The translations under genes were made by a program, and so were the position numbers. Shown one piece after another: positions 187-35,807 of a DNA stretch of 64,000 nucleotides. Source of the DNA: Thermodesulfobacteriota bacterium (GTDB lineage: Bacteria; Desulfobacterota; WTBG01; CAIYCZ01; CAIRTM01); NCBI GenBank assembly GCA_028278025.1, contig JANQFE010000024.1:75128-139127 (forward strand), read 5' to 3'. The notes under the pieces were generated by a model that ran no database searches, was not told the DNA's origin, and worked only from the letters and a program-made list of their open reading frames with translations. Numbering within the stretch: position 1 is the first letter of the stretch; each line of letters begins with the position of its first letter.

Positions 187-1182
187 CTATTTTAAAATAT
201 CTTCGATGAAGAAGAATGAATCAAGATCTTTCTTGCCATGCTCTTCAATCCATGAATCGCTCAATCCCCTGGAAACAATCTCGCCTTTTAAATTCAAAGA
301 GTAAAACCGACCATCTGAAATAGCTATTTTTATAAGGGGTAAAAACCCGGTTTGGTTCTCAACATCAAGGGAAGTTATGGCGTTGCCTTGCGGCAGCATA
401 ACACCATACCATTTTTCACTGCCTCTCCATTTATTGCCGAAATACGATTTGCGGCCAAAATAGGGTGGCGCCTGCCCCCAAATCTCTTTGCTATCAAGCA
501 GAAATAATGAATAATAATAGTCGTGATCATTGCTTCCTTTAATCACCTGCCTAAGATCATTATTGCAGCCGCTTGCTATTATAGCTTTTCTACCGTTCGA
601 GATCATTTCGGCTGTAACTATCTTGCTCAGTTGACCGGGATGAAAGTATTCACCGGCAAGCATTCCATCTTCACTAATTATAACTATTCTGCTGGCATAC
701 CATGTAGGATCATGCCCTGTGGCGATTATTTCCAAACTACCATCATTGTCCAAATCAACAGCCAAAAGATTCCGGACAGTAAATTTTCTGCTATTGCCGC
801 CGGCATAAGGAAAAGACTCAGGATATGTATTGAATTTCCAGAGTATTCCTCCCTTACGACTTAAAACTATAATAGTGCCAGGATCTGCACCATTGTGAGA
901 GGTCCCAATAACAATTTCATTCCGGCCGTCGTTATCAATATCAGCTAAAATGTCTTTTTCAATTTCGGATCGGATATCTTTAACCCATAAGGTGTTCCAA
1001 TCTTTATTCAGGGCCATGACAATACTTCCCTCATATTTAACCCTGAAGATATCTTTGGGCTTTTTAAAATCATTGATCAAGAAAATGATGCCGGCAACTA
1101 TAAGCCCAGTAGCAATGCCTTGTATATAACCATTCTTTATAAATGTACTTGTCTTCATCATGATGGCCCCTTTGATATTCAT
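187..1182 (-). CDS. membrane-anchored FG-GAP/VCBS-type repeat protein
   Basis: Last gene of the large minus-strand cluster. The product has one N-terminal hydrophobic segment (about residues 20-37) and then a domain with at least two calcium-loop style repeats, ADIDNDGRNEIVIG and AVDLDNDGSLEIIATG, typical of FG-GAP/VCBS beta-propeller blades. It is probably anchored in the inner membrane with the propeller in the periplasm. It starts 3 bases after the stop of the preceding gene. ATG at 1182 follows an in-frame TTG at 1185; a second ATG at 1161 has a better ribosome-binding site (AAAGGGG) and would still keep the membrane segment, so it may be the true start. FG-GAP folds usually bind ligands, sugars or calcium; no enzyme motif is visible. 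Confidence 0.75.
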   Translation of the reverse strand: MNIKGAIMMKTSTFIKNGYIQGIATGLIVAGIIFLINDFKKPKDIFRVKYEGSIVMALNKDWNTLWVKDIRSEIEKDILADIDNDGRNEIVIGTSHNGADPGTIIVLSRKGGILWKFNTYPESFPYAGGNSRKFTVRNLLAVDLDNDGSLEIIATGHDPTWYASRIVIISEDGMLAGEYFHPGQLSKIVTAEMISNGRKAIIASGCNNDLRQVIKGSNDHDYYYSLFLLDSKEIWGQAPPYFGRKSYFGNKWRGSEKWYGVMLPQGNAITSLDVENQTGFLPLIKIAISDGRFYSLNLKGEIVSRGLSDSWIEEHGKKDLDSFFFIEDILK

Positions 1183-1185
1183 CAA

Positions 1186-2598
1186 TCATCTTTTCTTTTG
1201 AGCAGATATTTTTCCTATCATACCTGCCAAACCAATCCCCAGGAAAACCAGTCCAAGCGGTATAACCAGTTGTTCCAACCACTGATGGGGTATATTATTA
1301 AATAACGCTGATGCCTGAAGGTACTGATGGCCATGACCATAATTCTGCAAGCCAAAATCAAAATAATGATTAAGGCTTTTATTTGAAAGGATGTTTATTG
1401 GATCCAGCCGCCAGGGAGTTTGAACTTTATAATATAATTCCGCTTGTTTATTTAAATGCACAATCCGGTCCCATTTTAAGATGTTGTTATTATCTATTGA
1501 CAAACCGGGTATGTCCGAAAGGAATTCACGTAATGCTCTGCGTTCAAAACTGCCGCCACCCCAGCATTTTTTTATCGGAAACCATTTAGACCTAACTACA
1601 GAAGCCCTTGTTAAATAAGAAAAGTTTATTTCGCCTCTCAAATGTTTTTGTTTAAAACTCAAATAATTGGGTGATAGAACTGATGTTTCAATTCGACATT
1701 CATAACTGTAATCAGATATCCCATTTAAGATCATTTCTTCCTTTATCATGTCAACGGCCTGCCGCATACTCTCTTGCCTAAATTCATGCATAAGGCAGAT
1801 TTCATATTCAATACCAGAAGCCGTTTCCTTGCAAACGCAGAACTTGCTGTCATATTTTACACCATACCAGTTTGATTCATTAGAATGAGAACGGTTGTTT
1901 TTTAAAACTTCCCGACCATCAGTATCTACTCCTATCCCGGGATAATAACAGTCTGTACCCGAACATACACCTCGCAGCTTAAGTTCAAAATCGAATGAAT
2001 AGCCCTGAGGTTTTAAAGGTTTTAATATTGCCAATCCAATCGGCAATTGACCAAAACCATTTTCAATCCCGCGGATTTGAAAATGAGCCTTGGTTTCTAA
2101 AATGCCGGAGGGAATAATCGACTGATCAATCTTAATATCAATTTTTTCTTCCTTGGAACCAACATTCCTATATTGATCCGAAAACAGGAGCCATAGATCA
2201 ACATGTAAAGATACTGTACTTGTAAGTTTTAAACTCATGAGGATGACGCCAAAGGCTATAAGCAAAATTCCTAGGACAAAAATCGAGGTGTATTTGTTTT
2301 TTATGGAATGACTAAAAAATTGATTTATACAACTGAGGCTGGTGCAATAAAACCATCTTATAAATCCGAAAACAAGGTGTATTTCTTTTCGATAAAATCC
2401 GGTTTTAAATTCACCAAAAATCAGAATCGATTCAATAAATGAAACAATTATGAAAAAAACCAAATTTTCAGTTTGGAAAACCACTATGTTATAGAGGATA
2501 GGTACTTTTAACAACCAACCTGGTTCAAAAAATAAATTTCCACAGTATAAAAAAAGAAAAGGGGATACTGTTAGAATGAATAGTACTATACCGATCAT
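1186..2598 (-). CDS. polytopic membrane protein of unknown family
   Basis: 470 residues. Hydrophobic segments lie near residues 2-20, 32-60 and 103-125, followed by a soluble region of about 300 residues and a last membrane segment near 443-462 ending in a basic tail. The soluble region contains several cysteines (CSGTDCYYPG, CVCKE) compatible with an envelope domain stabilised by disulfides. I recognise no family. It lies 10 bases downstream of the helix-hairpin-helix membrane protein and directly upstream of the FG-GAP protein, so the three are probably cotranscribed and work together. Start ATG at 2598 is preceded by GAAGAAA. Confidence 0.7.
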   Translation of the reverse strand: MIGIVLFILTVSPFLFLYCGNLFFEPGWLLKVPILYNIVVFQTENLVFFIIVSFIESILIFGEFKTGFYRKEIHLVFGFIRWFYCTSLSCINQFFSHSIKNKYTSIFVLGILLIAFGVILMSLKLTSTVSLHVDLWLLFSDQYRNVGSKEEKIDIKIDQSIIPSGILETKAHFQIRGIENGFGQLPIGLAILKPLKPQGYSFDFELKLRGVCSGTDCYYPGIGVDTDGREVLKNNRSHSNESNWYGVKYDSKFCVCKETASGIEYEICLMHEFRQESMRQAVDMIKEEMILNGISDYSYECRIETSVLSPNYLSFKQKHLRGEINFSYLTRASVVRSKWFPIKKCWGGGSFERRALREFLSDIPGLSIDNNNILKWDRIVHLNKQAELYYKVQTPWRLDPINILSNKSLNHYFDFGLQNYGHGHQYLQASALFNNIPHQWLEQLVIPLGLVFLGIGLAGMIGKISAQKKR

Positions 2599-2608
2599 AA
2601 AATTTTCT

Positions 2609-4393
2609 TCAAATACGAATTAAATCCTGCAATGCCTCAAAACGACTTCTTTTCAGACCCTCGATCTTCATTACATCGGCGATTCTATTGTAAGGGCGGT
2701 TGGAAATAATTCTTTTGGCGATTTTTGGGCCAACACCTGGTAATAAAATAAGATCCTTAAATTCTGCCCTGTTGATATCTAAGGCATCGTTTATATCCGT
2801 GTTTAAAATTGTTATCAACAGATAGCCCAGGGATAAGAGATAAGCTTCTATTTTGGGCAGGAAAAACCCAAAAGAAAAAACTCCCAAAATAATTGCTAAA
2901 GAATAATCCAAAAGTTTTGCTCCTGCTAAAAGGATAAGGAAGGTTAAAGTTATTAGAAAGGGCAAAAAATAAATATAAAACAAAACCAAGTGCAGTCTGG
3001 AAACTAATTTTGAAAACTTTGTTTTTAGTAAGTTAGGTACCCTGTTAAGCCGTGCGGCAACATCATTCCACGCAATTAATGTCACTAGAAACCAAAGAAA
3101 AAACATAAGCACTATGCCCTGGTTGCCGAAAAAAAATCCAGCTATTTCCTCTGAAGATGTTGTTTTCGGGATAACCCAGTTAGTACTTATTGCTTCAAAT
3201 TTTTGAAGAATGTTTGGTATTGATTCTCCATTTAGTTCCGACAAACCTACTTTATTCAAAAGTGATACGCTCTTGGGTAAAATGAAATAGATCAAAAAAA
3301 CCAGTGCAATCACCAGAGCTTGTAAGGTTTTGGTTGTTTGCCGACCGAAAGTAGCATATCTTGCGGCATCGGAAACCTGTCGGATAGCTTCCAGGAACAT
3401 AATTCTAGTTAAGACTTGGGCACAAGAAATACTTAGCTTTTTAGGAGAATCTGCAATAAATTCAACCGTAAAGATCATAACCGGCGCACAAATGCTCATC
3501 GCCAATAACAAACGTTCTATAGTAGTCGGTGATTGCAGCAAGCGACCATTTGTAAAAATTATTAAAAGACACAAAAAACCGACAATTATGCCCGAGCCTA
3601 TGATTATTGTGGTAAATTTTCCAAGACTTTTATTGCTTCCAGTCTTTAAAGATCCTTTTGCCACAAGCACTGCTGTAACAATCAGAACAAAAGCAAAGTA
3701 TAAAAATGTAGCTTCAGCATAGCCCGAAAGCCAATATCCGAAAAGCCCGGCCGCAAAGATCAGAAGCAGAGCTATAATCCATCCGATCAGATCAGACAGT
3801 ATTCCGTAAGCTACCGGTTTCCCCACTTGACCTCTTCTATGCCCCATACCCTCCGGGAAGGCATATGCTAATATAAGCCAGGTCGCCAGCTTTACTTTAC
3901 CGGGAGAGATAACGGTAAAATTATAAATGCTGTAAAAACAGACCATAGTGTAGATGATAGGAAAACCGATAACATTGCTTGCTGAAAAAATTTTCCCCGT
4001 AAACATTGCCGCAAACCAGTCCCGCAGCAAAAGAATCAAAACACTTAAAAATACAATGTCAAGACAAGTTAAACTGTTTATCCGTTTTGGAGTAATGCCG
4101 GGTTTATATTTCATTCGCATCAAACGAAATAGCAGTGAGAGGGTGGCAATAATGCCTATAATATTAATAATGTTTTCCGTTAGGTTAAAATAATTAGAAA
4201 GAATGAAAAAAAGAGCTGTTACCAGGATCGAACTAAAAACACATATTCGAAAAGAGCGTTGGGGAAAAGGAGAAGACAAAAAAAAATTCGGTTTAATCCA
4301 AATAACTGTTGATACAAGGACAGCAGCCGTTAGGTGAGAAAAGGCAAACAGGAAAAAGGAATTGAATGTATCAATAACATTATGATCAAACAT
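2609..4393 (-). CDS. polytopic membrane protein with C-terminal ComEA-like helix-hairpin-helix
   Basis: 594 residues. About ten or more hydrophobic segments fill residues 10-520, and the last 55 residues form a helix-hairpin-helix module: INRAEFKDLILLPGVGPKIA followed by a second hairpin ending LKRSRFEALQDLIRI. The module matches the ComEA/PulK-like HhH used for DNA binding or for protein contacts in envelope systems. None of the ComEC metallo-beta-lactamase or competence motifs is visible, so a DNA-uptake role should not be assumed. It follows a 264-base gap containing a hairpin, so it may begin a separate transcript for the last three genes of the cluster. Confidence 0.75.
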   Translation of the reverse strand: MFDHNVIDTFNSFFLFAFSHLTAAVLVSTVIWIKPNFFLSSPFPQRSFRICVFSSILVTALFFILSNYFNLTENIINIIGIIATLSLLFRLMRMKYKPGITPKRINSLTCLDIVFLSVLILLLRDWFAAMFTGKIFSASNVIGFPIIYTMVCFYSIYNFTVISPGKVKLATWLILAYAFPEGMGHRRGQVGKPVAYGILSDLIGWIIALLLIFAAGLFGYWLSGYAEATFLYFAFVLIVTAVLVAKGSLKTGSNKSLGKFTTIIIGSGIIVGFLCLLIIFTNGRLLQSPTTIERLLLAMSICAPVMIFTVEFIADSPKKLSISCAQVLTRIMFLEAIRQVSDAARYATFGRQTTKTLQALVIALVFLIYFILPKSVSLLNKVGLSELNGESIPNILQKFEAISTNWVIPKTTSSEEIAGFFFGNQGIVLMFFLWFLVTLIAWNDVAARLNRVPNLLKTKFSKLVSRLHLVLFYIYFLPFLITLTFLILLAGAKLLDYSLAIILGVFSFGFFLPKIEAYLLSLGYLLITILNTDINDALDINRAEFKDLILLPGVGPKIAKRIISNRPYNRIADVMKIEGLKRSRFEALQDLIRI

Positions 4394-4623
4394 GTGCTTT
4401 TATGGTAGGGGTTATGCTTGTCTGAAACCCTGGCGCACAAACTCCGTCCTGCCTGGATTGAAAAACGGGATCTTCGCCAGATATTAAAAATGATAAAAAC
4501 TAAATTATCGGGATACACCCGAAATTTATCGGGAATGCAGCACTTGATATATGACAATAAATCAACAATTCCAAACCTTGCCAACCATAAGCAAACCTTT
4601 TGCGACATCATTTATTCAGCCGG

Positions 4624-4650
4624 ATCACACCGGTTTGGGGGTGGTGTGAT
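4624..4650 (-). terminator. hairpin in the 4394-4657 gap (possible attenuator or terminator)
   Basis: Perfect 8-bp stem (ATCACACC/GGTGTGAT) with an 11-base loop, just downstream of the lipoprotein gene ending at 4658 on the minus strand. No T-run follows it, so factor-independent termination is doubtful. It could reduce read-through into the three distal genes. The rest of the gap holds only short unsupported reading frames. Confidence 0.35.
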
Positions 4651-4657
4651 TTCTAAA

Positions 4658-5137
4658 CTATTTTTCTCTCTGCACGGTAACAATTGTTGATCGCAGAATA
4701 TCCGACGGAACTGTTTTCAAGGTATCGCCTGGTTTATAAAGCTCTTGTTTGGTTGTTGCGATGGCAATGATTTCAAAAGGTTCTCCAATGCCATTATTTT
4801 CGGTACCAAAATAACAGAGGGACTGCCATCTTCCATCCGGACCAACGGTGGGAATGTTCTGCACCCACCAAAGATTTGTTACAAGGGGGTGGATTAGAAT
4901 GTAGACGTTTAACTTTGGATCACTAACTGTTCCCCGTACCAATTCCGTCATTGTGACTGTTGCCCCCTCAGCCGGGCTGGTAATTTCAATTTTGAGGGCA
5001 TCCACCTTTGTTTCTTCCGGACCGCTTGATTTTGTTTGCTTTAGCTCATTGATTTCACGGTCCTCTGAATAACAACTGGAAACGATAGGCCCAAGCAATA
5101 AAAAAATGATGATGAAATAACAGTTAGCTTTTCGCAT
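4658..5137 (-). CDS. lipoprotein with a domain shared with the 216-residue neighbour
   Basis: 159 residues. N-terminal signal peptide ends in a lipobox (IVSSC, Cys about residue 22), so this is a lipoprotein. The mature part has an Ig-like opening (IEITSPAEGATVTM) and a C-terminal domain with WWVQN, a GRW turn, an FEII strand and a final RSTIVTVQ strand. The same pattern, in the same order, occurs in the C-terminal half of the membrane protein at 5480-6130 (VRPVISSKCWVQN, GNWE, FEII, RRVIRV). The two are probably diverged paralogous domains on different anchors. An AAGGAG ribosome-binding site lies 8 bases before ATG 5137. Function unknown. Confidence 0.8.
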   Translation of the reverse strand: MRKANCYFIIIFLLLGPIVSSCYSEDREINELKQTKSSGPEETKVDALKIEITSPAEGATVTMTELVRGTVSDPKLNVYILIHPLVTNLWWVQNIPTVGPDGRWQSLCYFGTENNGIGEPFEIIAIATTKQELYKPGDTLKTVPSDILRSTIVTVQREK

Positions 5138-5189
5138 TACAAAACTCCTTAATATAAAAGTTAATAAAAAAATCTCATATGAGATGTCA

Positions 5190-5471
5190 TTATTGTAACT
5201 TCATTTCATGTTCTTCAACCCTCCTTTGGAGACGATTAACCCATTCCTTCATTTCTTCCAGCGTTCTTTTCGTTTCTATTTCTCTGCGAAGCTGATCAAA
5301 ATCAGTACAGATCTTACTATGATTCTCTTTCATTAAAGATTCCAGATCATCGAATCGTTTGTCAAACCAAAAAACAATTGCGCAGCAGAACGTGAGGATA
5401 GCAATAAATACAGCAATATCCCTCCACACCCTCATCGCCGATTTTTCTCCTAATTGTTTTAAAAATTTCAT
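5190..5471 (-). CDS. small single-pass membrane protein with coiled coil
   Basis: 93 residues. One membrane segment at about residues 19-37, then a charged heptad-rich helix (residues 40-93) predicted to be coiled coil. It lies 8 bases after the 216-residue membrane protein gene and 52 bases before the lipoprotein gene. Size and layout resemble small scaffolding or bundling subunits of membrane complexes, but no family is recognised. The start at 5471 has only a weak ribosome-binding site, consistent with translational coupling. Confidence 0.65.
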   Translation of the reverse strand: MKFLKQLGEKSAMRVWRDIAVFIAILTFCCAIVFWFDKRFDDLESLMKENHSKICTDFDQLRREIETKRTLEEMKEWVNRLQRRVEEHEMKLQ

Positions 5472-5479
5472 ATAAGTAA

Positions 5480-6130
5480 TTAATTCACTCTTATTACACG
5501 ACGAGTTACGCGATTTTTATATTTTGCAATTTCATTAAAAGAAAGCGTGTATCCCTGCTTACAGGGGAAATCGAATTTTTTTTCTGCTGCCAGCAGGATA
5601 ATCTCAAATCTTCCATATCCACCAAAAAAGGCTGTTGTTTCCCAATTGCCTTGGTGGTCGGGTAGAATCGTGTTTTGCACCCAACACTTACTTGAAATTA
5701 CAGGCCTCACAAGAAGACAATATTTAAAGTTATCTTTTGTCACTTTGCCATGAATCACTTCAGTGGAATCTACCCGGGCCGGAATTGTAAGATAAAAAAA
5801 GGTTATCAAAACCAGAGCTAAAATGAACAGCCCTATGCTGAGAGTGAACCATTTCGTTCGGGTTGTTTTAAAAAATGATGGGATCCAAGAGACGACAGTT
5901 ATAAGGCAGAAAAAAAATAGTATCCAAAAAACTGTGATTGCAAAGTAACCGCCGGGACGGTAAATAGCAATTCCAAGGTCAACACCCATACTCACGGTAT
6001 CAAAATAGTCAGCTATTAAACGGTTAATTAATGCTGCTATTAGACCGCCTATGATACTTGCAATAATGCCTATGACAAGGTCACGGATTACCTCTTGCCG
6101 TTTATCTCTTTCTTGTGTTTTGGTATTCAT
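5480..6130 (-). CDS. three-TM membrane protein with lipoprotein-like C-terminal domain
   Basis: 216 residues with three membrane segments (about 14-37, 63-84, 93-114) and a C-terminal soluble domain (120-216). That domain aligns by eye with the lipoprotein at 4658-5137: VIHGKVTKD versus VRGTVSDPK, CWVQN versus WWVQN, a GNWE/GRWQ turn, FEII in both, and a closing RRVIRV/STIVTV strand. After three membrane segments and a cytoplasmic N-terminus, the domain should face the periplasm, the same side as the lipoprotein domain. Function unknown; the pair suggests an envelope binding module used twice. Confidence 0.72.
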   Translation of the reverse strand: MNTKTQERDKRQEVIRDLVIGIIASIIGGLIAALINRLIADYFDTVSMGVDLGIAIYRPGGYFAITVFWILFFFCLITVVSWIPSFFKTTRTKWFTLSIGLFILALVLITFFYLTIPARVDSTEVIHGKVTKDNFKYCLLVRPVISSKCWVQNTILPDHQGNWETTAFFGGYGRFEIILLAAEKKFDFPCKQGYTLSFNEIAKYKNRVTRRVIRVN

Positions 6131-6265: not shown

Positions 6266-6625
6266 TTATTGATGGGAGGGAACTCTTTCGCAATAATCAA
6301 GTGTGGCTTTTACATTTTTGCAACGAGCTATTGCTTTGGTCTCATTAATCGATGCAATATATGGAAAGATCAAAGGGAAAATTATAAATGCATAAAACCC
6401 TTTTATGAATGAATCCGACGCGTACCAAATATTAAATCCAGGTATCCATGAAAGCCATTTTGCTTTCCTTTCATTTTTAACTTCCATTTTACATTCCGGA
6501 CAGGCCCTTATGCAGTCTTTATACAACTTATGGTCCGCAGGGGTGCATGCGGGCGGCATGATGGCACAACCAAAGAAATTAAAAATTAATACTACCGTTA
6601 ATATCATTATTATAATGCTTTTCAT
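6266..6625 (-). CDS. small lipoprotein with hydrophobic C-terminal half
   Basis: 119 residues from ATG 6625 (an in-frame upstream start at 6649 is possible). The start is chosen because it begins a clean signal peptide ending in a lipobox (FNFFGC), with GTGAGAAC upstream as ribosome-binding site. The mature part carries several cysteines (CTPADHK, DCIRACPEC) and a hydrophobic stretch in the second half that may be a membrane helix or an amphipathic segment. I recognise no family. It is placed between the ankyrin-PEGA gene and the 216-residue membrane protein gene. Confidence 0.7.
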   Translation of the reverse strand: MKSIIIMILTVVLIFNFFGCAIMPPACTPADHKLYKDCIRACPECKMEVKNERKAKWLSWIPGFNIWYASDSFIKGFYAFIIFPLIFPYIASINETKAIARCKNVKATLDYCERVPSHQ

Positions 6626-6648
6626 TTTGTTCTCACTTGCATAAAACA

Positions 6649-7812
6649 TTAATAACTAATTTTAAAGTTGTGTGTTAGTCTACTTATTTGATTTTCTCTA
6701 ACCTCAACATTACCTACCCACTTTTTATCACCTGCTTTAAGTGCAACAATATGGTTTTTGGCCAAAATCTTGTCGATAGTGAGAGGGGTTTCACCATAGC
6801 GCTCATTTTCTATAAATATCTCTGCCCGAGGAGGGGTTGAAAAAATCACTAGAGAGCCATAGATCGGTTGAAGGTCTATTTTTATTGAACGTTGTTCTTT
6901 TGAGATATTTGAATTAATCTCGTATTCACTATAGCCCTCTTTAATAAGTTTAATATGGTGATTTGCACAACTAACCTGTGGAATAGTTATAGGGGTAACA
7001 CCGATAATTTTATTGTCGAAAATTATTTTCGCGTTGGCCGGTTTAGAACGGATATTTACATCAATTATATCAAGATCGAATGAAAAATGATTGCGACTGT
7101 TCGTAACACTCAGGTATTTAAGAATTCCTTGAGAATTGACGGGTTTAAACATTAATGTATAGTCACCGATTTTGACAGCTTTTAATATCGCTGGTGTAGT
7201 CCCGGTAATTTTCCCAGGTTTTAATGTAAACTTTACATTCGGCGGGTTACTAGTAAGTGCAATAGTGCATAAGATTTTTGATACACCGTCGGCAGGATAT
7301 TGATTTGTTGTTATTATATTTGGCTGATTGTTTTCCGACGTTGGTTCTTTTTTTGCAGAAAGAAGGTTTGCAATTTCTTTATATCCCTCATCTTCAGCAT
7401 AATCTATTGATGTTTTTCCTTTTTTATCTTCTATGGTAGGATCAGCACCACTCTGAAGCAGAACTTTAAGAGCCTCAGTCCTTCCGTATAGTACTGCCAG
7501 ATGCATAGGTGTCTGGCCTTCATCATTTTGGGGATTCAGCTCTGCCCCAGACTCTATTAAAAGTTTTACAAATTCAGGACGGTCGCCAATTATTGAAGAA
7601 GCAATATGTAAAGGCCTCGAATCGGATAGTCCGACGGCATTAACATCTGCACCCAATCTAATCAGATCCTTAGCCCGGCTAATTTTACCCTGGATAGATG
7701 CATTAAAGAGTTTATTATTGAGATCAACGCGCTGATCTTCAAGAGCAAAAGCATCCCGCAAGAAGCATGCTATTAAAAACGATATTAATAAAAGGTTAAT
7801 CTGCCGTTGCAT
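6649..7812 (-). CDS. secreted ankyrin-repeat and PEGA-domain protein
   Basis: 387 residues. A signal peptide (1-23) is followed by three to four ankyrin repeats (about 35-150: DSRPLHIAS, EGQTPMHLAVLYGRTEALKV, KGKTSIDYAEDEGYKEIANL), a linker, and two or three PEGA domains (about 185-387; NIRSKPANAKIIFDNKIIG and STPPRAEIFIENERYGETPL are typical beta-hairpin repeats). PEGA domains are small surface or periplasmic modules; ankyrin repeats bind proteins. The combination argues for a periplasmic adaptor within the cluster. No catalytic motif is seen. Confidence 0.85.
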   Translation of the reverse strand: MQRQINLLLISFLIACFLRDAFALEDQRVDLNNKLFNASIQGKISRAKDLIRLGADVNAVGLSDSRPLHIASSIIGDRPEFVKLLIESGAELNPQNDEGQTPMHLAVLYGRTEALKVLLQSGADPTIEDKKGKTSIDYAEDEGYKEIANLLSAKKEPTSENNQPNIITTNQYPADGVSKILCTIALTSNPPNVKFTLKPGKITGTTPAILKAVKIGDYTLMFKPVNSQGILKYLSVTNSRNHFSFDLDIIDVNIRSKPANAKIIFDNKIIGVTPITIPQVSCANHHIKLIKEGYSEYEINSNISKEQRSIKIDLQPIYGSLVIFSTPPRAEIFIENERYGETPLTIDKILAKNHIVALKAGDKKWVGNVEVRENQISRLTHNFKISY

Positions 7813-20532: not shown

Positions 20533-21130
20533 TTTCTTTTTCATCCTCAGTATGTTTTTTTTCTTTTTTATTTTCAAAATTAACTAAAACAACAAAATAT
20601 TTATTATTTATGTCTATAGTTAAATCATTATTAAACAAAGATTTAAATTTTGATGATATATCGTCTATTGGAGTTTTATCTATTTGAAGTTTTGATGTTT
20701 TAAACATTTTATTGTTTGCCAATATTACAACCTCTACTAATTCATGGTAAGCTTCAGGCAAATTAATTATTTTTATATGGAAACAAAAATCCATTATTCT
20801 TCCAGATGATCTGAACTTTCTTTGTTTGCCGAAATCATTACCATGAAAATATATTGATTCTCTTTCATTTAATTTTGATATTGTTAATTTTACAGCACAT
20901 CTATTAATAATATAATTGTATGTATATGAATCTTCCAAAATTTTCACCTGATCACTCAGGTGTTTATTTTGTTCATTAATGCCCTCAAATGAACAGTAAG
21001 CATACCAGGCCAAAACACCTGTCAAGATTGCTATTATTGCTTTTAGAATGACTATGCACCATTGAGGAGTCGCTGATTTTTCACAACAATCCACAATCGA
21101 TTGCTTCAATCCTTTAATCTCTTGCTCCAT
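20492..21130 (-). CDS. small single-pass membrane protein, AT-rich gene
   Basis: 212 residues: cytoplasmic N-terminus with two adjacent cysteines, a membrane segment at about 26-47, a short coiled coil (50-70), then a beta-rich soluble domain and a lysine/glutamate-rich tail. The AT-rich composition is shared with the overlapping OmpA-like gene downstream, so the two may have been acquired together. It starts 18 bases after the 1347-residue VWA-tubulin gene. No family recognised. Confidence 0.68.
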   Translation of the reverse strand: MEQEIKGLKQSIVDCCEKSATPQWCIVILKAIIAILTGVLAWYAYCSFEGINEQNKHLSDQVKILEDSYTYNYIINRCAVKLTISKLNERESIYFHGNDFGKQRKFRSSGRIMDFCFHIKIINLPEAYHELVEVVILANNKMFKTSKLQIDKTPIDDISSKFKSLFNNDLTIDINNKYFVVLVNFENKKEKKHTEDEKENGKKNYFFDLFKF

Positions 21131-28100: not shown

Positions 28101-29031
28101 TGGATTCCTTGGCGTACAGTATGGGCAGGCCCCATTCCAACAGCCCTTTGTCGCTGTCCGCTGTAACGAGGTAGAACAGATTTTTATCTTCCGGCAGGTA
28201 ATCAAATGCGCGGTTGTTATAGAACTCCCGAACAGTTCCGCCCCTGCCCACGCTATTCAGAAAACCCAGGTTATCAATCATCTTCAGGAACAATTGGTAT
28301 AAATGGTTTACATCAGGATAACAGCAATAGGAAAAATGGGGGGCCGTGAAGATTGTCTCCCAAAACCGCTCAATGACCGTGTAACCGATCCCCACGCCAA
28401 CCAGTTTAATGTTTTCTGCTTCGGCATTTGCCGCGATTTTAACCAGGGGGTCAATGTGTTCGTCCTGACCATCCGAGATAACGATAATATACCTGCTCGT
28501 TTTGTCGGGTGAAGGATTTGAGGTTAATTCATTAAGTGCTTCAGCAACCGCCCGGGCAATACTGGTTCCTCCCCCGCCTCCTACCGGTTTCATACCCTTA
28601 ATAAAGCTCTCAAAATCGCTGGAAAGCGGTGAAACAATTAGCGGTTGGTGATCAAAAAACATTAAGGCCATACGAGTATTAGTGCCGGAAACGAGATGTG
28701 CAAAATTTCTGGCCGCACCCAAAGCTTTTGATAGGTTGCTGTCAGGATTGTCGACCGAACCCATTGAGCCTGAATAATCTATGCAAAAGACCACATCAAG
28801 CCGGGGGGGCTCCACAGGTTTGCCGCCGGGATTAAACACCAGTGCTGCCTCAACAGGATTGTCCACCCATGCCGATATAGGGGATATCTGGCGACTAATC
28901 GCTCCCGGTGTAGCCAGGCTGTTTGCGATCAGCACATAAGAATATGCCAGCCCAATCAGCAAACTGGGTACGAAGACGAGGAACCAAAAAAGCCGGCGGC
29001 GTTTGGGGGTATCTATTAAATAACGTAACAT
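25198..29031 (-). CDS. membrane-anchored VWA-tubulin-like fusion (FtsZl type), 1277 aa
   Basis: Basic N-terminus, membrane segment about 13-35, VWA domain 77-250 (MIDAS DYSGS at 85-89, GGGGGTS near 151-157, VISDGQD with Asp 187), second membrane segment 351-376 followed by RR, then a tubulin-like domain with GIGGCG (421-426) and T4-type loop VGSTTGGTSSG ending at 578. The positive-inside rule puts the VWA in the periplasm and the tubulin fold in the cytoplasm. A long helical C-terminal extension follows. Same architecture as the 1347-residue product, so likely paralogues or subunits of a hetero-assembly. No obvious ribosome-binding site precedes ATG 29031. Confidence 0.9.
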   Translation of the reverse strand: MLRYLIDTPKRRRLFWFLVFVPSLLIGLAYSYVLIANSLATPGAISRQISPISAWVDNPVEAALVFNPGGKPVEPPRLDVVFCIDYSGSMGSVDNPDSNLSKALGAARNFAHLVSGTNTRMALMFFDHQPLIVSPLSSDFESFIKGMKPVGGGGGTSIARAVAEALNELTSNPSPDKTSRYIIVISDGQDEHIDPLVKIAANAEAENIKLVGVGIGYTVIERFWETIFTAPHFSYCCYPDVNHLYQLFLKMIDNLGFLNSVGRGGTVREFYNNRAFDYLPEDKNLFYLVTADSDKGLLEWGLPILYAKESTVRYNVIPKKIGIHHLVSQQGTVSFKNPSGREQIMRSNLNPILLIVSPWLLFWLYLPALLYFLCCCIGRRAEVRIKNLADISVGSLPTASFNPAPPVKKPVIHPAPTIIVGIGGCGLNVMCHMKHTLKELMPWDASDQFLFLGLDTDRETQPPEFCDARLAVDERFFFPDIYDLRNAINEIHTAPQNFPYYSHWLDHDTLARLDAEQQTLRQGTQGNRQMGRLALLKDLESPEPVWLKIDKRIGEWIGDKKDVQLIMVGSTTGGTSSGSFIDAAHLIKKCLTARGIGPSVPHYAFLSRTGLAGESGRNHAAFIEELCRHQYSRGHAAPMVNADGNGGLKYEDTDMPLFDRIFLFGDKDHPASVADVLFLFCEESQKSELLNLLSDPSYRILKQKDNNHDCVWHAASISSVRFPVGMMIEETTLRILRAVLEQHIAFDCSEGRFFAKKTLTAKQVIDTWKERNYYTILCDPAEGRKLASYHTLVFEDIQPSVLQNTELPDTGQAKKFYQAVIELWLNGAEPDENLLLSQQIQQRMGRFGSLMELFRDITAFEAKPDNAVDGQEYIELHQKILSNLMVWNHVLVEREGELSASFDRRDGLYRFLHTRHSRLEKHKEQLQKIPCRLYVWENSGNPDYRFDTLWEKRIKPVLEDNESPFAARCRWQIADNLDIRFRFSGQEDNVFLPDQSTPKKIYDAFFSFITESLFPDISTISLFDKLTSDLEIEKNLTRTELQGDYVLLTFPKEGDDKAIDQLKSQIQKRIQAPKIVKEAKINNPLIISLLSIQPDQTTGGISGAEATADRADLDFNFPAEQQTVHLMQRREKRTGHKTEFFSPALRSLARSPFGYETMVRAIGMQYFRKKRDGLFTYWALFYNGQVYLLNRAGSDGRYRALSALLLKRRDSNGNQLDPSMINKEWQALDRQRKIEILEYAEEEVENFDTSELPSIENELSQLLVEIIYLEKEKLESK

Positions 29032-29048
29032 GTTGTTTTTTTATATAA

Positions 29049-32000
29049 TTAAATCCTGCTTGACCTTTTTGATGGCCGGGTTTTTCTTATATTCTCTTTT
29101 CGTCTATACTCATTTGCCCTTTCTTCTAAGAGGTTGCAGAATATCTTCCTAAAATTTTCCTCCACAGCCCTGTTCTGGTCCGAACTGTAAAAACAAAAGT
29201 CCAAATCACTACTCTCAATCCTCGCTAACAACTTATTGAACGCTCTTTGGAAGTAGTCCTCTTCATTTTCAACGTCCTTGGCCTTAATCTCAGGATCAGC
29301 TAGACATACCTCTATTGATTCTCTTTTAACCTCGGTTAATTTATCATATGAAGGCAGAGAACTAAGAGAACTCAGCGGATTCTTGTTTGGAACCTTATTG
29401 GTAAAATTAATAACAGCATCAAAAATTCGACTTCCATCAGAAAGATAAAAACAATTTTTATGGTCCTTTTTATCTCTTTCCAAAGCATCCAGTGCCTGGT
29501 CGCCCAGCCAGAGATAGAATCTCTCTTTTCCTTGTTCAAACTCTTGTGTCTCGATGACGCCTAATGCAAAAAGGTCATAAAAGAGGTTTAGATAATCGGT
29601 ATTGGAAAACAGCTGCGTTACATGATATGATGCCAGATCAGTAATATCGTTTAATGCCTTTTTAGGTGCCAGTATATTCATTTCATAATCGACACAGGCC
29701 TGTTCCTCAGGGAAGATGTGATAGATATCCATCATCCAAGAGCGGCTGCGGATTTTTTCCAAATAGGCATCCTGGTAGGCCTTGGTGGTGTTGCAGGTTT
29801 TGGAAACAATCCCATGGACAACCTTGATATAGCCCAGGATCTCGGAGGCCTCGTAGTCTTCAATACGGTTATAAGCACCGAATTTATTAGTCACTTTCTG
29901 TAGTTCCCTTTCCAGCTCGTCCATAAATGTCTTTTCTGCAGGGGTGTTCGGTGACTTATAGAAAAGGTAATGTGAAATCATAACATTGGTTTCATCATAT
30001 TTGAGATAGGTGGAGCATTTGCTGAAATGCTGCGCAATCTGCTTTGCAGCTTCTTCTATCGGCAACGATTTTTTGGAACGGTTGGGGAGATAGTTCAAAA
30101 GATAATCAAAAATATCACGACTCCCCAGTTCATGGTGGCAATCCTCATCCGCCCTTTTGAGAAGGTTTTCACAAAGGTCCCGGGCTTTGACCACGTCAAT
30201 TTTTTCTGAGAAAAGCCTTAAATTTAAATTTTTGTCATCTTTTATCTGCCATTCCAGTGTTTCCAGCCAGCTTCTCACTTTCTCATCAAAATCGATCAGG
30301 CCACACAGATATTCTTCATAGCCGCCCATGTCGGTTACCGGGTGCAGTTTGTCTTTGCCCATTTCTCCGGGAAGCCCGAAGCTGATGTTGGGGCTTTGTG
30401 CCAGTTGTCTCAACTCGGCATTGAGGGCGGCTTCCTGCTCCACAATTTTGTTCCAAACGCTTTGGTCGTGGGTGACGATCTCATTTCTCCAGCGCTCACA
30501 TTCGGACTTCCATTGAGAGACCTTATTGCGTGCTCCGATAAGGGTTGCCATGATGTATCGGTTGGCAATCGCGGCCTTGGTTGTTTTTAAAAGGGACCGT
30601 TCCTTCTTGAGGTACGCCTGCTGCTCTTTCTTCAGGTTTCCAAAAAGAAATCCGCCGCTTGTTTCATTTATTTTTAACAGTGCATTGGCTACTTTACCCT
30701 GGTCATTGTCCCAGTCCTGTTTAATTTTATAGTGTCTGTCTTCCAGCCGTCTCAGCATGGGCTCAATAAAAGCTGTCCCCATCTGGTCCAGAGCCTTGAG
30801 CAAGTAGCCGAAACGGCCTCTCTTGGCATCAATGGCTCCGGGTGTTAGTTTTGTAACAATGAAATTTTTAAGTTTTTCTTCAAAGCTGTTCACCCAGAAG
30901 TCGCTAAAGTTTCTTAGTTTGTTGTGTATCTCACCGGTGTTGCCGTTAATGGCTTCATCCATGGGGCCGTGAAACTTTTCTTTGGCTTCAGCGACCGCTT
31001 TTGTAATGTTATCCCGGTCGGCATCATCACTGGTACACAAAGCATCCAGGCCGTCAAAATTCATTTCCTGCAGCTGTCTGATATCGGTGGTTTTATCCCT
31101 TGGGACACAGATATTAAGTAACCGGTTCATGCTGCTCCGCTGGTTCATAAAATTGTTTTCCCTCTCCGCATCCCATTTCTGCAAAGTGGTGTCATTTAGA
31201 AAGAAGCTCTGGCTTAGAACATTATGCCAGCCGATAAAAAAGTCTTTTGCTTCTTCCAGGACCGTCTCCTGAATCTGTTTTTTATCCTTTCCTGATTCCT
31301 TGCCTTCAGGATAAAAATCAGCCCGCAGGAGATTGTTTTCCTGATCGGGCTTGAAAAGTTCCGCCAGAAACGTTTTTGAAAGCTTCAGAGATAGTTTCTT
31401 CAAGAACCTTTTTCTGGGAAACATGATCCTGTGGGTTGTAAAGGTTGAAAAGAAGGGCTCAAATTGGGGAAAATTTGCCTGAATAATACCGGCATCACCG
31501 GACTTTGTCATGAGTGATATATTGGACAATTCTTCTGCGCTGGTCGACAAGTTATTCTGTATTCTTCTAATAGCACTGTTTACGTTAACCACGTCTTCAT
31601 CCAATTTTTTCCCGGTTTCTTTTTCTGTGAACAGCTCAATAATATCGGAAATCGACGGATAGAGCACATTGGCACGCAGTTTTTCTCCACTAAAAACACT
31701 GTCACTGGGCATATCGATTAAAAACACCCCATCAAAGGCACTTTCCTCAATAGTAGCCATACGCTGTTCATTATAGACAACCGTGAGAGGAGACTGAGGA
31801 GTATAGGTCTGGATCAAGCGGTGGAGCTCACGCAAGACGGCATAAGCCCGTTCGGCCGTATGCTGAAACTCCTGGTTGCCTTTCAGATCACTGAAAGCCG
31901 ACTCCAGGACCAGAAACAAAAAAATGTGAAGTTTTGCTCCCTTTCTCCTGGCAAGCTCACGCAGTACAATGGTCGTGTCCAGAAAACCGCCGGAACCGGT

Positions 32001-32507
32001 ACCTCCCACAAGCGAGCAGGCAATATGGACATTCAACGTCTCATTGGTGCCGATAGAGGCAAAAACATTACTCAGTTTATTCCAGATTGTATTGATATTT
32101 TGAAAAACGGCCAGCCGGCCGATCTGGCGGTACTGACCGGCACCGGCTTCAAAGCTGAGCACTTTATCCGGAATCCGCAACTCGTTGATGAATTTTTTGG
32201 CCTTTACCCAGCGATATTTCTCATTATCACTGCCTTTATCAACTGTCAGGTTTCTGAGCAGGGTCTTTAAATTCTCTCCCTGGTAATGAATATATTCCGA
32301 CAGCTCAATCGGGACCTGGGTGAAAATCGTCTGGCCGCTTTGTCGGCTGGATTCTTCCTGGGCTTTCTCAACCTTATCAAATGAAAGGGTGTCAAGATAA
32401 ATATATTCTACAGTCTCTTCTTCTCGGTACAGGGAGAACTTATACTTCAGGTTTCTGATCGTATTGCCGCCGGTACCGCCTATTCCTATGACTAAATTAA
32501 CGCTCAT
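29049..32507 (-). CDS. soluble tubulin/FtsZ-like protein (tubulin_2/FtsZl type)
   Basis: 1152 residues, no signal peptide or membrane segment. The N-terminus has the nucleotide-binding loop VIGIGGTGGNT (6-16) and the best tubulin signature in the window, SLVGGTGSGGF with GGTGSG at 168-173. Ordinary FtsZ is about 350-400 residues; here the GTPase-type domain is followed by about 800 residues of helical, charged sequence. This matches the tubulin_2/FtsZ-like family described in neighbourhoods with VWA proteins and proposed to remodel membranes. It could be the polymer-forming core to which the two membrane-anchored paralogues add. A 41-base gap separates it from the upstream VWA gene. Confidence 0.9.
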   Translation of the reverse strand: MSVNLVIGIGGTGGNTIRNLKYKFSLYREEETVEYIYLDTLSFDKVEKAQEESSRQSGQTIFTQVPIELSEYIHYQGENLKTLLRNLTVDKGSDNEKYRWVKAKKFINELRIPDKVLSFEAGAGQYRQIGRLAVFQNINTIWNKLSNVFASIGTNETLNVHIACSLVGGTGSGGFLDTTIVLRELARRKGAKLHIFLFLVLESAFSDLKGNQEFQHTAERAYAVLRELHRLIQTYTPQSPLTVVYNEQRMATIEESAFDGVFLIDMPSDSVFSGEKLRANVLYPSISDIIELFTEKETGKKLDEDVVNVNSAIRRIQNNLSTSAEELSNISLMTKSGDAGIIQANFPQFEPFFSTFTTHRIMFPRKRFLKKLSLKLSKTFLAELFKPDQENNLLRADFYPEGKESGKDKKQIQETVLEEAKDFFIGWHNVLSQSFFLNDTTLQKWDAERENNFMNQRSSMNRLLNICVPRDKTTDIRQLQEMNFDGLDALCTSDDADRDNITKAVAEAKEKFHGPMDEAINGNTGEIHNKLRNFSDFWVNSFEEKLKNFIVTKLTPGAIDAKRGRFGYLLKALDQMGTAFIEPMLRRLEDRHYKIKQDWDNDQGKVANALLKINETSGGFLFGNLKKEQQAYLKKERSLLKTTKAAIANRYIMATLIGARNKVSQWKSECERWRNEIVTHDQSVWNKIVEQEAALNAELRQLAQSPNISFGLPGEMGKDKLHPVTDMGGYEEYLCGLIDFDEKVRSWLETLEWQIKDDKNLNLRLFSEKIDVVKARDLCENLLKRADEDCHHELGSRDIFDYLLNYLPNRSKKSLPIEEAAKQIAQHFSKCSTYLKYDETNVMISHYLFYKSPNTPAEKTFMDELERELQKVTNKFGAYNRIEDYEASEILGYIKVVHGIVSKTCNTTKAYQDAYLEKIRSRSWMMDIYHIFPEEQACVDYEMNILAPKKALNDITDLASYHVTQLFSNTDYLNLFYDLFALGVIETQEFEQGKERFYLWLGDQALDALERDKKDHKNCFYLSDGSRIFDAVINFTNKVPNKNPLSSLSSLPSYDKLTEVKRESIEVCLADPEIKAKDVENEEDYFQRAFNKLLARIESSDLDFCFYSSDQNRAVEENFRKIFCNLLEERANEYRRKENIRKTRPSKRSSRI

Positions 32508-32548: not shown

Positions 32549-34888
32549 TTATTCAATCAAATACGTTAAAGAGTATTCATCATCATCCGGAATGCTTTCC
32601 GGCTCGTTGGGAGACAAGGACTGTTGATAATCAGGCATTGTTTCATCTTCTTTTTTAGTCTTGCTTTTGAAATAATAAACTTCTATTTCATTGCGTAAAA
32701 GGCTGCGGGTAACACGAAACCCTGTAATAGCGTCTTCCAGTCTTTTCTGCATTTCAGGCCAGGGGATGGACTTTCGCATCAAAATAAGTTTAAGCATTAA
32801 GGAAAAGGGGAAAAAGGTTTCAAACCCGAATCCCGTATTGCCAAAATAGATCCTGCGGTAGTGTTTTACGCTTTTTGAAAAACCGCTTACAGCGGGATCA
32901 TCAAAATTTTTATGAAAACAAAGCTTTGCCCGCTTTACTCTGATGATATAATCTCGCAACATGAGAACCGACCAGGCAATGCCTTCCTTTAAAATCAGTA
33001 CAACATCAATCAACAGCCATAAGATCAAGAAAAGAAAGGGCACTCCCAGAAGTATTGATTCATTAAACGGAATTCCGATATGCGGTTCGGTTGTGTTTAA
33101 ATAAGGTCCTTTAAAACGGTAGATAAAATATTTGGGATTCAGGTATTCGGTATTAACGGAAAATTTTATATCGGCTTTTCCATTCCTTAAAACAGCCGTC
33201 AGTGGTCGGAATCTGTCATTAATCTTTATTGATGCATAAAGTGCATTAGGACCTAAAGAAGCATTCGGCTGTAAAAAGATTTTTGGGCTTATTGTTTCAT
33301 TTGCCGCATTTAAAAACTGGGCCATTAAAAGTTTTTCTGGGGATTTGCTTAGTTCCGTCAGCGGCAAAACCCGAGACGGATTGCGAAAATCTGTAATCTC
33401 AATTCCGATATCAGTAGCCGCTTTACCGAACTTCAAGGAGATTGATTCTGGTTTGATCAGATTAATTACCAGAGGGACTGAATCTGTAACTTCAAATGGC
33501 TGTTCTGCTCCTTCAAAAATTATTTGATCGCCTGATTTGACTGTCGGGCTGTAACCTGTTATCAGCGCTTTATGAATACCAAAGGTTTCGGGCTGAAACT
33601 CTTTTATTGACTCAAAAATTCCATCTTGAACTAAGTGCATCTTAAGCGTGTACGTTTTACCATTGGGTGCAATGATGGTCGACTCAACCAGGTAGGGGCA
33701 ACCCGGCTTATCAATAAACGGCTCACCGGTTCTTGATGAGGAGACAAACCAACGGATTTTTGTCGGGACACTGGGTATTCTTGTATGAATACCAGGTACA
33801 GCGAATCTTACCGTATCATAATATTGTTCAACTCTTATTTCAGTATTCTTATTGCCCCCGAACTGCCAGATGCCTTTTTCAGGATCGGTAAACCCGTAAA
33901 TTATATAGGTATTTGCGCGTTCCACGATATGTTTATTCATAAAAACCTTCTGCCCATCCGGTTTGTAAATTTGGATGGTTGCCCCCGGATTCTGCTGGTA
34001 TACAATAAAATGTACTTTGCTCAGATAGCAGGGGCAGTCAAATTCATTCTGAACGATATTATATTGAATGTTAATAAGGTCTTTTATAACTTCATCTATA
34101 TAGGAATTCAGTTTATGGTTATAATCCAGTTGCCTGGCAATTTTTGACAGCTTTTCCCAATTTGGCCCGACAGACTCCCAGTAAGGGAAAGCATCGTTCA
34201 TGGCAAGCACATACAGCGGAAGTTTCCGTCCGCTATTGCTTGCTTCCTTTTTTGTATGATTAATTAATTTTTTCAGATCCCTCCAGTAACGGTCGGAATA
34301 AAAACGTCCGCTTCGCAAATAGGGGTTGATTTCAGAATAAGGCTTTCCGTCTGTAATTAAATATATTGCCGGTTTTCTTTCATGTATGGTATCCGCCCCA
34401 AAAGAAATGGCTTTAAAGAGTTCCAAAGCCTTGTGAAATGCTGCGATTAAATGGGTATCTCCTAAATTTTTTTCTTCCAATGAGGCTTTTAATTTTGTGA
34501 GATTGTGCAAGGCATCTTTCCTTAAACCCTCACCGTCGATTAAAAACCACGGCACCAATACCTGAGCATCACTACCGAACTCTACCACTGCAATTCGATG
34601 AGAATGTGGACGCCCTCTTGCAATTGACTGCTTGCTTTGGGCTTCCAGTTTGTTAATAAAATTTCTAATGGCGTCAATTCTGTAACCATGCTTATCATTG
34701 GGTTCCGGATGAGCCTTTGACCCTTTATTCCGACCCGACATGCTACCGGACTGATCCAGCAGAATAATGATATCTGTGCCCGGTTTATCAGGTACAGGCA
34801 CACCAGTTTCAGCCTGGGCCAAAACTGGATGGAGAATGCCCAAAACCAAACAGTAAATTAGTGCCAATATTTTTATCTTAAACAGCAT
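32549..34888 (-). CDS. secreted, membrane-anchored VWA domain protein
   Basis: 779 residues. Signal peptide (1-25, VLAQA); VWA domain about 36-290 with intact MIDAS LLDQSGSMSG (45-52) and YLITDGKP; beta-sandwich-rich periplasmic region to about 600; membrane segment 612-634; cytoplasmic tail of about 145 residues ending in an acidic stretch. This is again a periplasmic VWA joined to the cytoplasm by one membrane crossing, but with no nucleotide-binding domain. It lies 11 bases after the CAP-domain gene and immediately before the tubulin-like genes. No MoxR AAA+ partner, common for VWA proteins, is seen in the cluster. Confidence 0.87.
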   Translation of the reverse strand: MLFKIKILALIYCLVLGILHPVLAQAETGVPVPDKPGTDIIILLDQSGSMSGRNKGSKAHPEPNDKHGYRIDAIRNFINKLEAQSKQSIARGRPHSHRIAVVEFGSDAQVLVPWFLIDGEGLRKDALHNLTKLKASLEEKNLGDTHLIAAFHKALELFKAISFGADTIHERKPAIYLITDGKPYSEINPYLRSGRFYSDRYWRDLKKLINHTKKEASNSGRKLPLYVLAMNDAFPYWESVGPNWEKLSKIARQLDYNHKLNSYIDEVIKDLINIQYNIVQNEFDCPCYLSKVHFIVYQQNPGATIQIYKPDGQKVFMNKHIVERANTYIIYGFTDPEKGIWQFGGNKNTEIRVEQYYDTVRFAVPGIHTRIPSVPTKIRWFVSSSRTGEPFIDKPGCPYLVESTIIAPNGKTYTLKMHLVQDGIFESIKEFQPETFGIHKALITGYSPTVKSGDQIIFEGAEQPFEVTDSVPLVINLIKPESISLKFGKAATDIGIEITDFRNPSRVLPLTELSKSPEKLLMAQFLNAANETISPKIFLQPNASLGPNALYASIKINDRFRPLTAVLRNGKADIKFSVNTEYLNPKYFIYRFKGPYLNTTEPHIGIPFNESILLGVPFLFLILWLLIDVVLILKEGIAWSVLMLRDYIIRVKRAKLCFHKNFDDPAVSGFSKSVKHYRRIYFGNTGFGFETFFPFSLMLKLILMRKSIPWPEMQKRLEDAITGFRVTRSLLRNEIEVYYFKSKTKKEDETMPDYQQSLSPNEPESIPDDDEYSLTYLIE

Positions 34889-34898
34889 TTTTTTCGAC

Positions 34899-35807
34899 CT
34901 AGAAAATTTTTATTGGCTGCCCGGGATAAAACTTTTGATCAACGGACAAGCATAATTCGTAAACTCCTTTTTTTGCAAATCGGACTTTTAAAACAAACTT
35001 TACATCATCGAGCCATTCAACCTTGATAGGAATTTTATCCTGGACCTTGGCCTTAACAAATCCCCGGTAGTGACGCTGGAAAAAAAAGTCTATGTTCCGG
35101 GTGCCCTTAGGCTTCAGTAGACTTCCTCGGAAAATAAAGGTGCTGCCTTTTTTAGCCCGTAGGGGAATATCATCGTCGAAGATGGCAACCGTAGCGCTGA
35201 AATCCTGGGTTATGTAAACATCTTTATCGTTGGCGTATACTCCCACGCCGATATGGGTAAAATCTTTTTTCAGGATGCTGGCACGTGAATCAGGTTCATT
35301 CATCCAGCCGTTAATTGCCTCTCTTGCCAACTGTTCTTGGTCTGTCGGGGCATTAACAAATCTAAAAATATTTTCCGAGATGCCGCCATAAAGTCGACTG
35401 TATAGAACTATCTTCCTGTCAGTTGGTGAAAGCCCTTCAGGAGATTCATTAGAAAAATAGTTACGCTCACCCATATCTCGGCTATGATTATAGGCCATGT
35501 TGGTTAAACCTTTATCCACTGCCAGGGGTGGAAGGTTGTTCTGGGTTCTATACTCATTAGTGTATTTAATAATCAGCTCGACGGTCTGATTGTCATTTTT
35601 GACAGGCACCGATTTATATTTCACATCCCAAATAACCTGATTGGTTTGTTGTTCAGTTACATTACTCTTTTCCTCAATGTGCTCAGGAGGGAAAAAACGG
35701 TTTTTAATTTTTAGCAGAGGTTCATTTAAAAATATTATTAAGGCGAACAGCAAAAAATACGGGGCACTGAATAATAAAAATATTCGCCTCAACTTAAACT
35801 GTGTCAT
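34899..35807 (-). CDS. CAP/SCP-domain protein, first gene of the cluster
   Basis: 302 residues. N-terminal signal anchor (about 8-28), then a CAP (cysteine-rich secretory protein, PR-1-like) domain at about 75-208 with the hallmark residues His 108 (YNHSRDMG), Glu 145 (GISENI) and His 185 (THIGVGV), and a C-terminal beta domain (210-302). CAP domains act outside the membrane, binding lipids, glycans or cations. The ribosome-binding site TGAGGATC lies upstream of ATG 35807. It is the most upstream gene of the cluster, so the cluster promoter should lie in 35808-36000; I could not identify convincing -10/-35 boxes. Confidence 0.85.
   Translation of the reverse strand: MTQFKLRRIFLLFSAPYFLLFALIIFLNEPLLKIKNRFFPPEHIEEKSNVTEQQTNQVIWDVKYKSVPVKNDNQTVELIIKYTNEYRTQNNLPPLAVDKGLTNMAYNHSRDMGERNYFSNESPEGLSPTDRKIVLYSRLYGGISENIFRFVNAPTDQEQLAREAINGWMNEPDSRASILKKDFTHIGVGVYANDKDVYITQDFSATVAIFDDDIPLRAKKGSTFIFRGSLLKPKGTRNIDFFFQRHYRGFVKAKVQDKIPIKVEWLDDVKFVLKVRFAKKGVYELCLSVDQKFYPGQPIKIF

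Follow-up and report, generated by a model that had tools for sequence, protein, structure and literature searches.

In a 64,000-nt stretch of DNA from a Thermodesulfobacteriota bacterium (contig JANQFE010000024.1, positions 75,128 to 139,127; hereafter the window), 18 open reading frames (ORFs; at least 120 amino acids, aa), all on the minus strand, occupy positions 187-35807. They encode tubulin-like proteins of the FtsZl1 (Tubulin_2) family together with an Hsp70/actin-like ATPase and with VWA and OmpA domain proteins. There is about an even chance that the block specifies a trans-envelope assembly of nucleoside triphosphatases (NTPases) that belongs to the FtsZl1/VWA type and has gained the Hsp70-like ATPase as an addition. 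The most interesting part of the system is the recurrent partnership of its two NTPase types: the tubulin/Hsp70 pair recurs independently in five other genera, including one fusion. The block had been singled out in an earlier reading of the same DNA (the original prediction), which counted 19 minus-strand genes where we find 18. The genes that carry the argument are listed below.

g17, 32549..34888, minus strand: signal peptide, VWA domain (aa 40-182), transmembrane (TM) segment (aa 612-630) and predicted cytoplasmic tail.
g16, 29049..32507, minus strand: soluble FtsZl1/Tubulin_2 protein of 1152 aa, with a tubulin domain (aa 5-380) and a helical C-terminal part.
g15, 25198..29031, minus strand: TM-VWA-TM-FtsZl1 fusion of 1277 aa (VWA, aa 79-232; tubulin, aa 418-740).
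g14, 21149..25192, minus strand: TM-VWA-TM-FtsZl1 fusion of 1347 aa (VWA, aa 76-248; tubulin, aa 425-748).
g12, 19171..20577, minus strand: exported protein with an OmpA-type peptidoglycan-binding domain at aa 342-422 (Pfam OmpA, PF00691, E=7e-7, above the cut-off).
g11, 14281..19152, minus strand: signal peptide, a motif (LLDQSGT) resembling the metal ion-dependent adhesion site (MIDAS), TM segment at about aa 428-457 and ATPase domain at about aa 960-1435.

All three tubulin-like proteins exceed the curated Pfam cut-off for Tubulin_2 (PF13809; 27 bits), with scores of 155 bits for g16 (E=3.7e-45), 83.5 bits for g15 (E=2.3e-23) and 62.5 bits for g14 (E=5.6e-17), and they are the only Tubulin_2 genes found in this genome. 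The T1 (VIGIGGTGGN) and T4 (VGGTGSGG) motifs were identified in g16. The T4 loop, GGTG(S/T)G, is intact in g16 (GGTGSG) and altered in g15 (GGTSSG) and g14 (GGCSSG); it varies in other members of the family as well, for example GGTCSG in genome G029. The tubulin domain of g15 was modelled with AlphaFold from eight sequences. The model is of moderate quality (mean predicted local distance difference test score, pLDDT, 55; predicted template modelling score, pTM, 0.63), with blocks of residues 11-230 mostly at a pLDDT of 55-85, and a Foldseek search against the PDB placed FtsZ, TubZ, CetZ and BtubA on top (best E=1.7e-5, probability 1.00). The tubulin fold of g15 is thus supported by the predicted model, and the three tubulin/FtsZ-like proteins of the original prediction were borne out; its refuting condition, a structure prediction that fails to confirm the tubulin-like motifs, did not come true, on a model of moderate quality.

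VWA domains are firm in three proteins, g14 (Pfam VWA, E=5.3e-21), g15 (VWA_2, E=1.1e-15) and g17 (VWA_2, E=5e-12). The MIDAS is intact in g17 (LDQSGS) and g15 (IDYSGS); the corresponding sequence in g14 is IDRSES. In g11 and g17, a signal peptide followed by a single later TM segment would put the N-terminal part on the outer side of the membrane, with the ATPase of g11 and the tail of g17 on the inner side. The charges of g15, with KRRR ahead of the first TM segment and GRRAEVRI behind the second, likewise predict a VWA domain outside and a tubulin domain inside.

No Pfam family was matched by full-length g11, which falls below the cut-off of PF00012 itself; the NCBIfam HscA model matches it at E=1.1e-4. 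When aa 941-1560 were compared with a DnaK-type profile, hhalign gave 94.8% (E=5.5e-8), rising to 97.1% (E=5.3e-11) once two FtsZl1-associated Hsp70-like proteins had joined the profile; the controls, five shuffles and three unrelated proteins of the window, gave 0.2% or less, with the shuffles at 0-0.1% against the DnaK-type profiles. The phosphate-1, phosphate-2 and adenosine motifs of actin and Hsp70 follow in order at aa 966, 1178 and 1388. Since the comparison with MreB gave 5.1% against 94.8% for Hsp70, the ATPase is Hsp70-like rather than MreB-like. Identity with SrfB (PF07520) was rejected, as no match was obtained at E<=1, and no PDB relative of g11 was found by sequence.

The Tubulin_2 loci of 16 other genomes, several of them on short contigs, were examined for the same pairing. 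In G029 an Hsp70-like gene lies 1.1 kb after FtsZl1 (PF00012, E=6.3e-7), and in G282 (L048:2862-7082) a natural protein kinase-Hsp70 fusion adjoins FtsZl1 (PF00012, E=1.9e-15). A protein of 1571 aa in G363 carries tubulin-like signatures in its N-terminal part and Hsp70-like signatures in its C-terminal part, its single-sequence scores being sub-threshold. A search with the C-terminal part of this protein located G454, where a tubulin-like gene of 489 aa directly adjoins an Hsp70-like gene of 1124 aa; the halves of the G363 fusion match these two genes at E=1.3e-12 and 1.6e-10. Seven genes stand in the G454 order in G525, which belongs to another genus. Most of these gene pairs are 38-55% identical; for OmpA the match covers 37 aa only. 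Pfam does not detect the tubulin-like protein in either G454 or G525. Profiles built from G454, G525 and G363 reached 94.8% (E=4.9e-8) against Tubulin_2 and 92.5% (E=4.9e-7) against Hsp70, and cross-controls with two-genome profiles gave 0.1%. The three compact clusters lie as follows.

G363: L046:18357 to L047:3072.
G454: L101:10164-15001.
G525: L106:4987-9956.

All three hold MotA/ExbB genes, above the cut-off in G454 and G363, and the G454 cluster holds an OmpA protein above the cut-off. Exported VWA-like proteins were identified in the three clusters by motif only, as was the VWA of G029. Because G454 and G525 were found via the Hsp70 partner, the unbiased count of the pairing is 3 of the 16 other genomes. 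By a rough estimate, with about 2.5 Hsp70/MreB matches per genome, some 1% of random stretches of 20 genes would hold one by chance. Genes that are naturally fused in one genome and conserved as neighbours in others are a classic sign that their products act together, and the recurrence of the pairing, once in fused form, suggests an undescribed two-NTPase machine across the envelope.

Tubulin_2 itself is uncommon; it was detected in 7 of 117, 11 of 395 and 13 of 291 genomes in three samples, or about 3% of the phylum. Elsewhere a single FtsZl1 gene often has a VWA gene as its neighbour, and no further VWA-FtsZl1 fusion was seen in the Tubulin_2 loci examined. A search with a two-sequence alignment returned five Bacteroidetes FtsZl1 loci only, with uninformative patterns. 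No plasmid relatives were found for g11 or for the tubulin part of g15, and scans of viral contigs with FtsZl1 and with g11 gave nothing. Two tandem short tubulin-like proteins, one of 529 aa (hhalign 97.4%) and one of 550 aa (96.5%), were noted in G500 (L096:12090-15767), with no VWA gene seen nearby.

Several observations weigh against a single trans-envelope machine. The whole gene set is unique to this genome among those sampled, and g11 has no relative in the 394 other genomes of the phylum (present in 1 of 395). The VWA domain proposed for g11 was not confirmed, with no Pfam match and an hhalign value of 1.9% at the MIDAS position only; its ATPase, modelled with AlphaFold 2 without an alignment, reached a pLDDT of 32.5, and the model was not used. 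An ordinary role in chaperoning or signalling could account for the Hsp70-like domain. In g14, positive charges follow the first hydrophobic segment and also flank the second on both sides, leaving the side of its VWA domain ambiguous by charge. Finally, g9, g10 and g13 show no known fold. The original prediction, which envisaged a trans-envelope machine with both folds, was right in its core (one locus, predicted topology, recurrence and fusion) and overstated for the full set, which is not conserved in the genomes sampled (g11 in 1 and Tubulin_2 in 11 of 395 genomes). The check that it proposed, a search for genomes with the same set within 40 kb, fails for the full set and succeeds for the core only. 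For its VWA-ATPase protein, g11, the ATPase was confirmed and the VWA domain was not; what was seen there is a MIDAS-like motif immediately behind the signal peptide. The observation as such is confirmed, and the interpretation is partly supported.

In the account of Makarova and Koonin (2010; PMC2875224), FtsZl1 is accompanied by genes for VWA, GTPase, kinase and OmpA proteins, and membrane remodelling was proposed for these systems, as the original prediction noted for the VWA-linked families; they had no established function. Diverged P-loop GTPases and/or protein kinases are frequent in them and not universal, and the text makes no mention of Hsp70 or DnaK and notes one TM-fused archaeal FtsZl1 (PMC2875224). 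Tubulin_2 proteins were set aside as divergent in a survey of 2023 (PMC9871819). The block resembles the systems of 2010 in having a Tubulin_2 protein with a helical C-terminal part, a VWA protein with a signal peptide or TM segment and a MIDAS, an OmpA protein, further TM and helical proteins that are lineage-specific, and a proposed membrane role (PMC2875224). The VWA gene is likewise in the same predicted operon as FtsZl1, with g17 adjoining g16, and VWA is also fused in g14 and g15. Unlike those systems, the block has three Tubulin_2 proteins, two of them fused to VWA-TM, an Hsp70/actin-type ATPase and extra CAP, ankyrin-PEGA and FG-GAP proteins, and Pfam revealed no diverged P-loop GTPase or protein kinase in g1-g18. 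What is new here is therefore the two VWA-TM-FtsZl1 fusions and the Hsp70/actin-fold partner, the FtsZl1-VWA-OmpA membrane system having been known since 2010. The original prediction knew of no described system with the full set; the FtsZl1-VWA-OmpA part of it was already published, and a system combining tubulin, Hsp70 and VWA was not found in the open-access literature.

Other systems share parts of the layout. A tested precedent is McaA, a periplasmic VWA protein with an essential MIDAS, a signal peptide, a TM segment and a cytoplasmic tail, which works on the magnetosome chains that the actin-like protein MamK organises (PMC9512821). Compared by layout only, g17 has the same order of signal peptide, VWA with MIDAS, TM segment and tail, with an actin-fold system inside; McaA-MamK differs in having no tubulin-like protein and in that its actin-like part, MamK, is a filament protein on its own. 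In a further system, VWA force transducers that work with motors of TolQ/ExbB type (PMC12204202) couple a membrane-tethered periplasmic VWA protein to an energy source in the inner membrane, as is proposed here. The MotA/ExbB genes of such motors are present in the G454, G525 and G363 relatives and, by Pfam, absent from the block; neither tubulin nor Hsp70 is described as a partner of the transducers (PMC12204202). Eukaryotic integrin-type linkages, with VWA/I-type and FG-GAP domains outside and the cytoskeleton inside, serve as a working analogy; folds and components differ, and no homology is claimed. Zorya is a trans-envelope complex with a peptidoglycan-binding domain of OmpA/MotB type. 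It differs from the block, where g1-g18 contain no ZorA/MotA homologue or helicase. Membership in Zorya was rejected, as no MotA_ExbB was found in g1-g18 and no ZorA or ZorB match by PADLOC among g9-g12 and g14-g17.

If the block does form a trans-envelope assembly, soluble g16 would bind GTP and assemble at the inner membrane, and the membrane-built g14 and g15, with their altered T4 loops, may nucleate, cap or anchor that assembly. The MIDAS-type VWA domains of g14, g15 and g17 would bind envelope partners through metal, and the OmpA domain of g12 would give a hold on peptidoglycan. From the inside, the g11 ATPase may drive or reset the assembly, either as a switch powered by nucleotide or by remodelling it in the manner of a chaperone. 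By analogy with integrins, or with McaA and the actin MamK, the state of an outside ligand could thereby be coupled to that of an inside polymer, and local envelope remodelling or adhesion would be a likelier output than cell division. It is put forward tentatively, at slightly short of an even chance, that the tubulin-type and the Hsp70/actin-type NTPases of bacteria belong to a single machine, a transmembrane cytoskeletal linker using both cytoskeletal folds with periplasmic VWA/OmpA parts. The data suggest tubulin- and actin-fold NTPases working as one unit coupled to the cell exterior. They also provide testable named partners for FtsZl1, namely the Hsp70-like protein, the G363 fusion, the collinear G454/G525 cluster and the VWA-TM-tubulin fusions.

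The remaining genes of the block are listed below.

g18, 34899..35807, minus strand: membrane-anchored CAP/SCP-domain protein, the first gene of the block (Pfam CAP, E=3.4e-21).
g13, 20492..21130, minus strand: single-TM protein, by hydropathy alone.
g10, 12068..14284, minus strand: signal peptide, extracytoplasmic part, TM segment (aa 220-238) and helical cytoplasmic part, predicted by hydropathy; no family.
g9, 8592..12038, minus strand: large soluble protein of no recognised family.
g8, 7872..8573, minus strand: protein with a C-terminal TM segment.
g7, 6649..7812, minus strand: exported ankyrin-PEGA protein (Pfam Ank_2, E=2e-29; PEGA, E=3.1e-23).
g6, 6266..6649, minus strand: small lipoprotein-like membrane protein (signal with Cys in the sequence).
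g1-g5, 187..6130, minus strand: FG-GAP protein (g1), two multi-TM proteins and two small exported or membrane proteins; membership uncertain.

The several VWA domains and the CAP, OmpA, ankyrin-PEGA and FG-GAP components of the original prediction were thus recovered by Pfam, in g14/g15/g17, g18, g12, g7 and g1, respectively. Its statement that spacing is mostly below 60 bp and often overlapping holds for g6-g18 (6266-35807), where neighbouring genes overlap or sit close (-86 to +59 bp), and for g1-g3 (0-10 bp). The exceptions lie around g4-g6, with gaps of 264 bp (g3/g4), 342 bp (g4/g5) and 135 bp (g5/g6), and because of these gaps g1-g5 are weaker, less sure members. The GC content of the block (0.397) is 8-9 points lower than that of the flanking DNA (0.476 and 0.489), which indicates that it was probably acquired and may have been pieced together. 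Within the block GC varies from 0.25 to 0.47, with 0.25-0.29 in g10, g12 and g13 (12068-14284, 19171-21130) against 0.47 in g14 and g15, a contrast that gives it the look of a patchwork. Scans of the block gave promoter-like matches above shuffles and terminator-like ones near shuffle levels, a pattern that is not interpretable. The C-terminal end of g3 is a helix-hairpin-helix domain, and g4 (4658-5137) and g5 (5480-6130) appear by eye to have a common domain (WVQN...G.W....FFG...FEII..A).

A role in biological conflict, anti-phage or inter-bacterial, is the main rival explanation because FtsZl1 loci elsewhere accompany BrxL, caspase, CHAT and MotA/OmpA genes. Attack would be sensed in the envelope by VWA, OmpA and lipoproteins, and a response would be set off by the NTPase part, as Zorya does with a motor of MotA/MotB type. 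Thermus and Meiothermus plasmids (L049, L051) carry VWA, FtsZl1 and a hypothetical gene directly before brxL; helicase, methyltransferase and HEPN genes also adjoin the FtsZl1-VWA pairs of these plasmids, and in Meiothermus the neighbours include helicase, DUF1156 and Swt1-HEPN genes, a defence-island setting. FtsZl1 stands amid several OmpA, PEGA, DUF4384 and caspase-family genes on plasmid p2 of Azospirillum sp. TSA2s (L088), is directly followed by MotA/TolQ/ExbB and OmpA genes on a Deinococcus sp. QL22 plasmid (L089), and forms a pair with VWA that adjoins a CHAT-protease gene in G160. The patchy, probably acquired locus, the MotA/ExbB genes of G454, G525 and G363, the OmpA-domain protein of G454 and a match of the PADLOC candidate model PDC-M61B to the g11 ATPase (E=1.1e-6) are in keeping with such a role. 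However, Pfam revealed no known effector among g1-g18, be it a nuclease, a protease or TIR, and the tubulin-like, VWA and OmpA proteins scanned matched no PADLOC family; we regard defence as unlikely. An SNF2-type helicase gene lies just outside the block (39343-41997); it matches PADLOC models of DpdE/ZorD/DrmD type, as any SNF2 helicase would.

Many parts are exported (g4, g6, g7, g10, g11, g12, g17 and g18), VWA and FG-GAP domains are integrin-like and Hsp70 may act as a chaperone, so that the block could serve mainly extracytoplasmic adhesion or surface assembly, with FtsZl1 and Hsp70 as housekeeping for the export and placement of the large VWA, CAP, FG-GAP and ankyrin-PEGA surface proteins. 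We hold this to be quite improbable: no secretion channel or outer-membrane barrel was recognised in g1-g18 by Pfam, the Hsp70-like domain is carried by a TM protein and in this differs from a soluble chaperone, and the G363 tubulin-Hsp70 fusion has no such surface proteins nearby. Little credence is given to unrelated envelope genes brought together by chance on acquired DNA, with tubulin and Hsp70 parts that are not partners. The strong GC variation and the uniqueness of the full set would fit such an origin, whereas the tight, overlapping spacing speaks against it, and it was rejected because of the recurrence and the fusion. Replacement of FtsZ in division was considered and rejected as weak, with scarcely any likelihood. 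No canonical FtsZ was found in this 93.5%-complete genome (G000), and a PF00091 match is present in 27 of 27 good-quality sampled relatives including G000, where it is g16 alone (20.7 bits, sub-cut-off). Yet the assembly is incomplete (170 contigs) and ftsZ may lie in a gap, G001 and G029 have FtsZl1 and keep FtsZ, and the block's set of envelope genes does not resemble a division cluster. As a separate observation, two or three FtsZ-type matches are present in several genomes of this organism's family.

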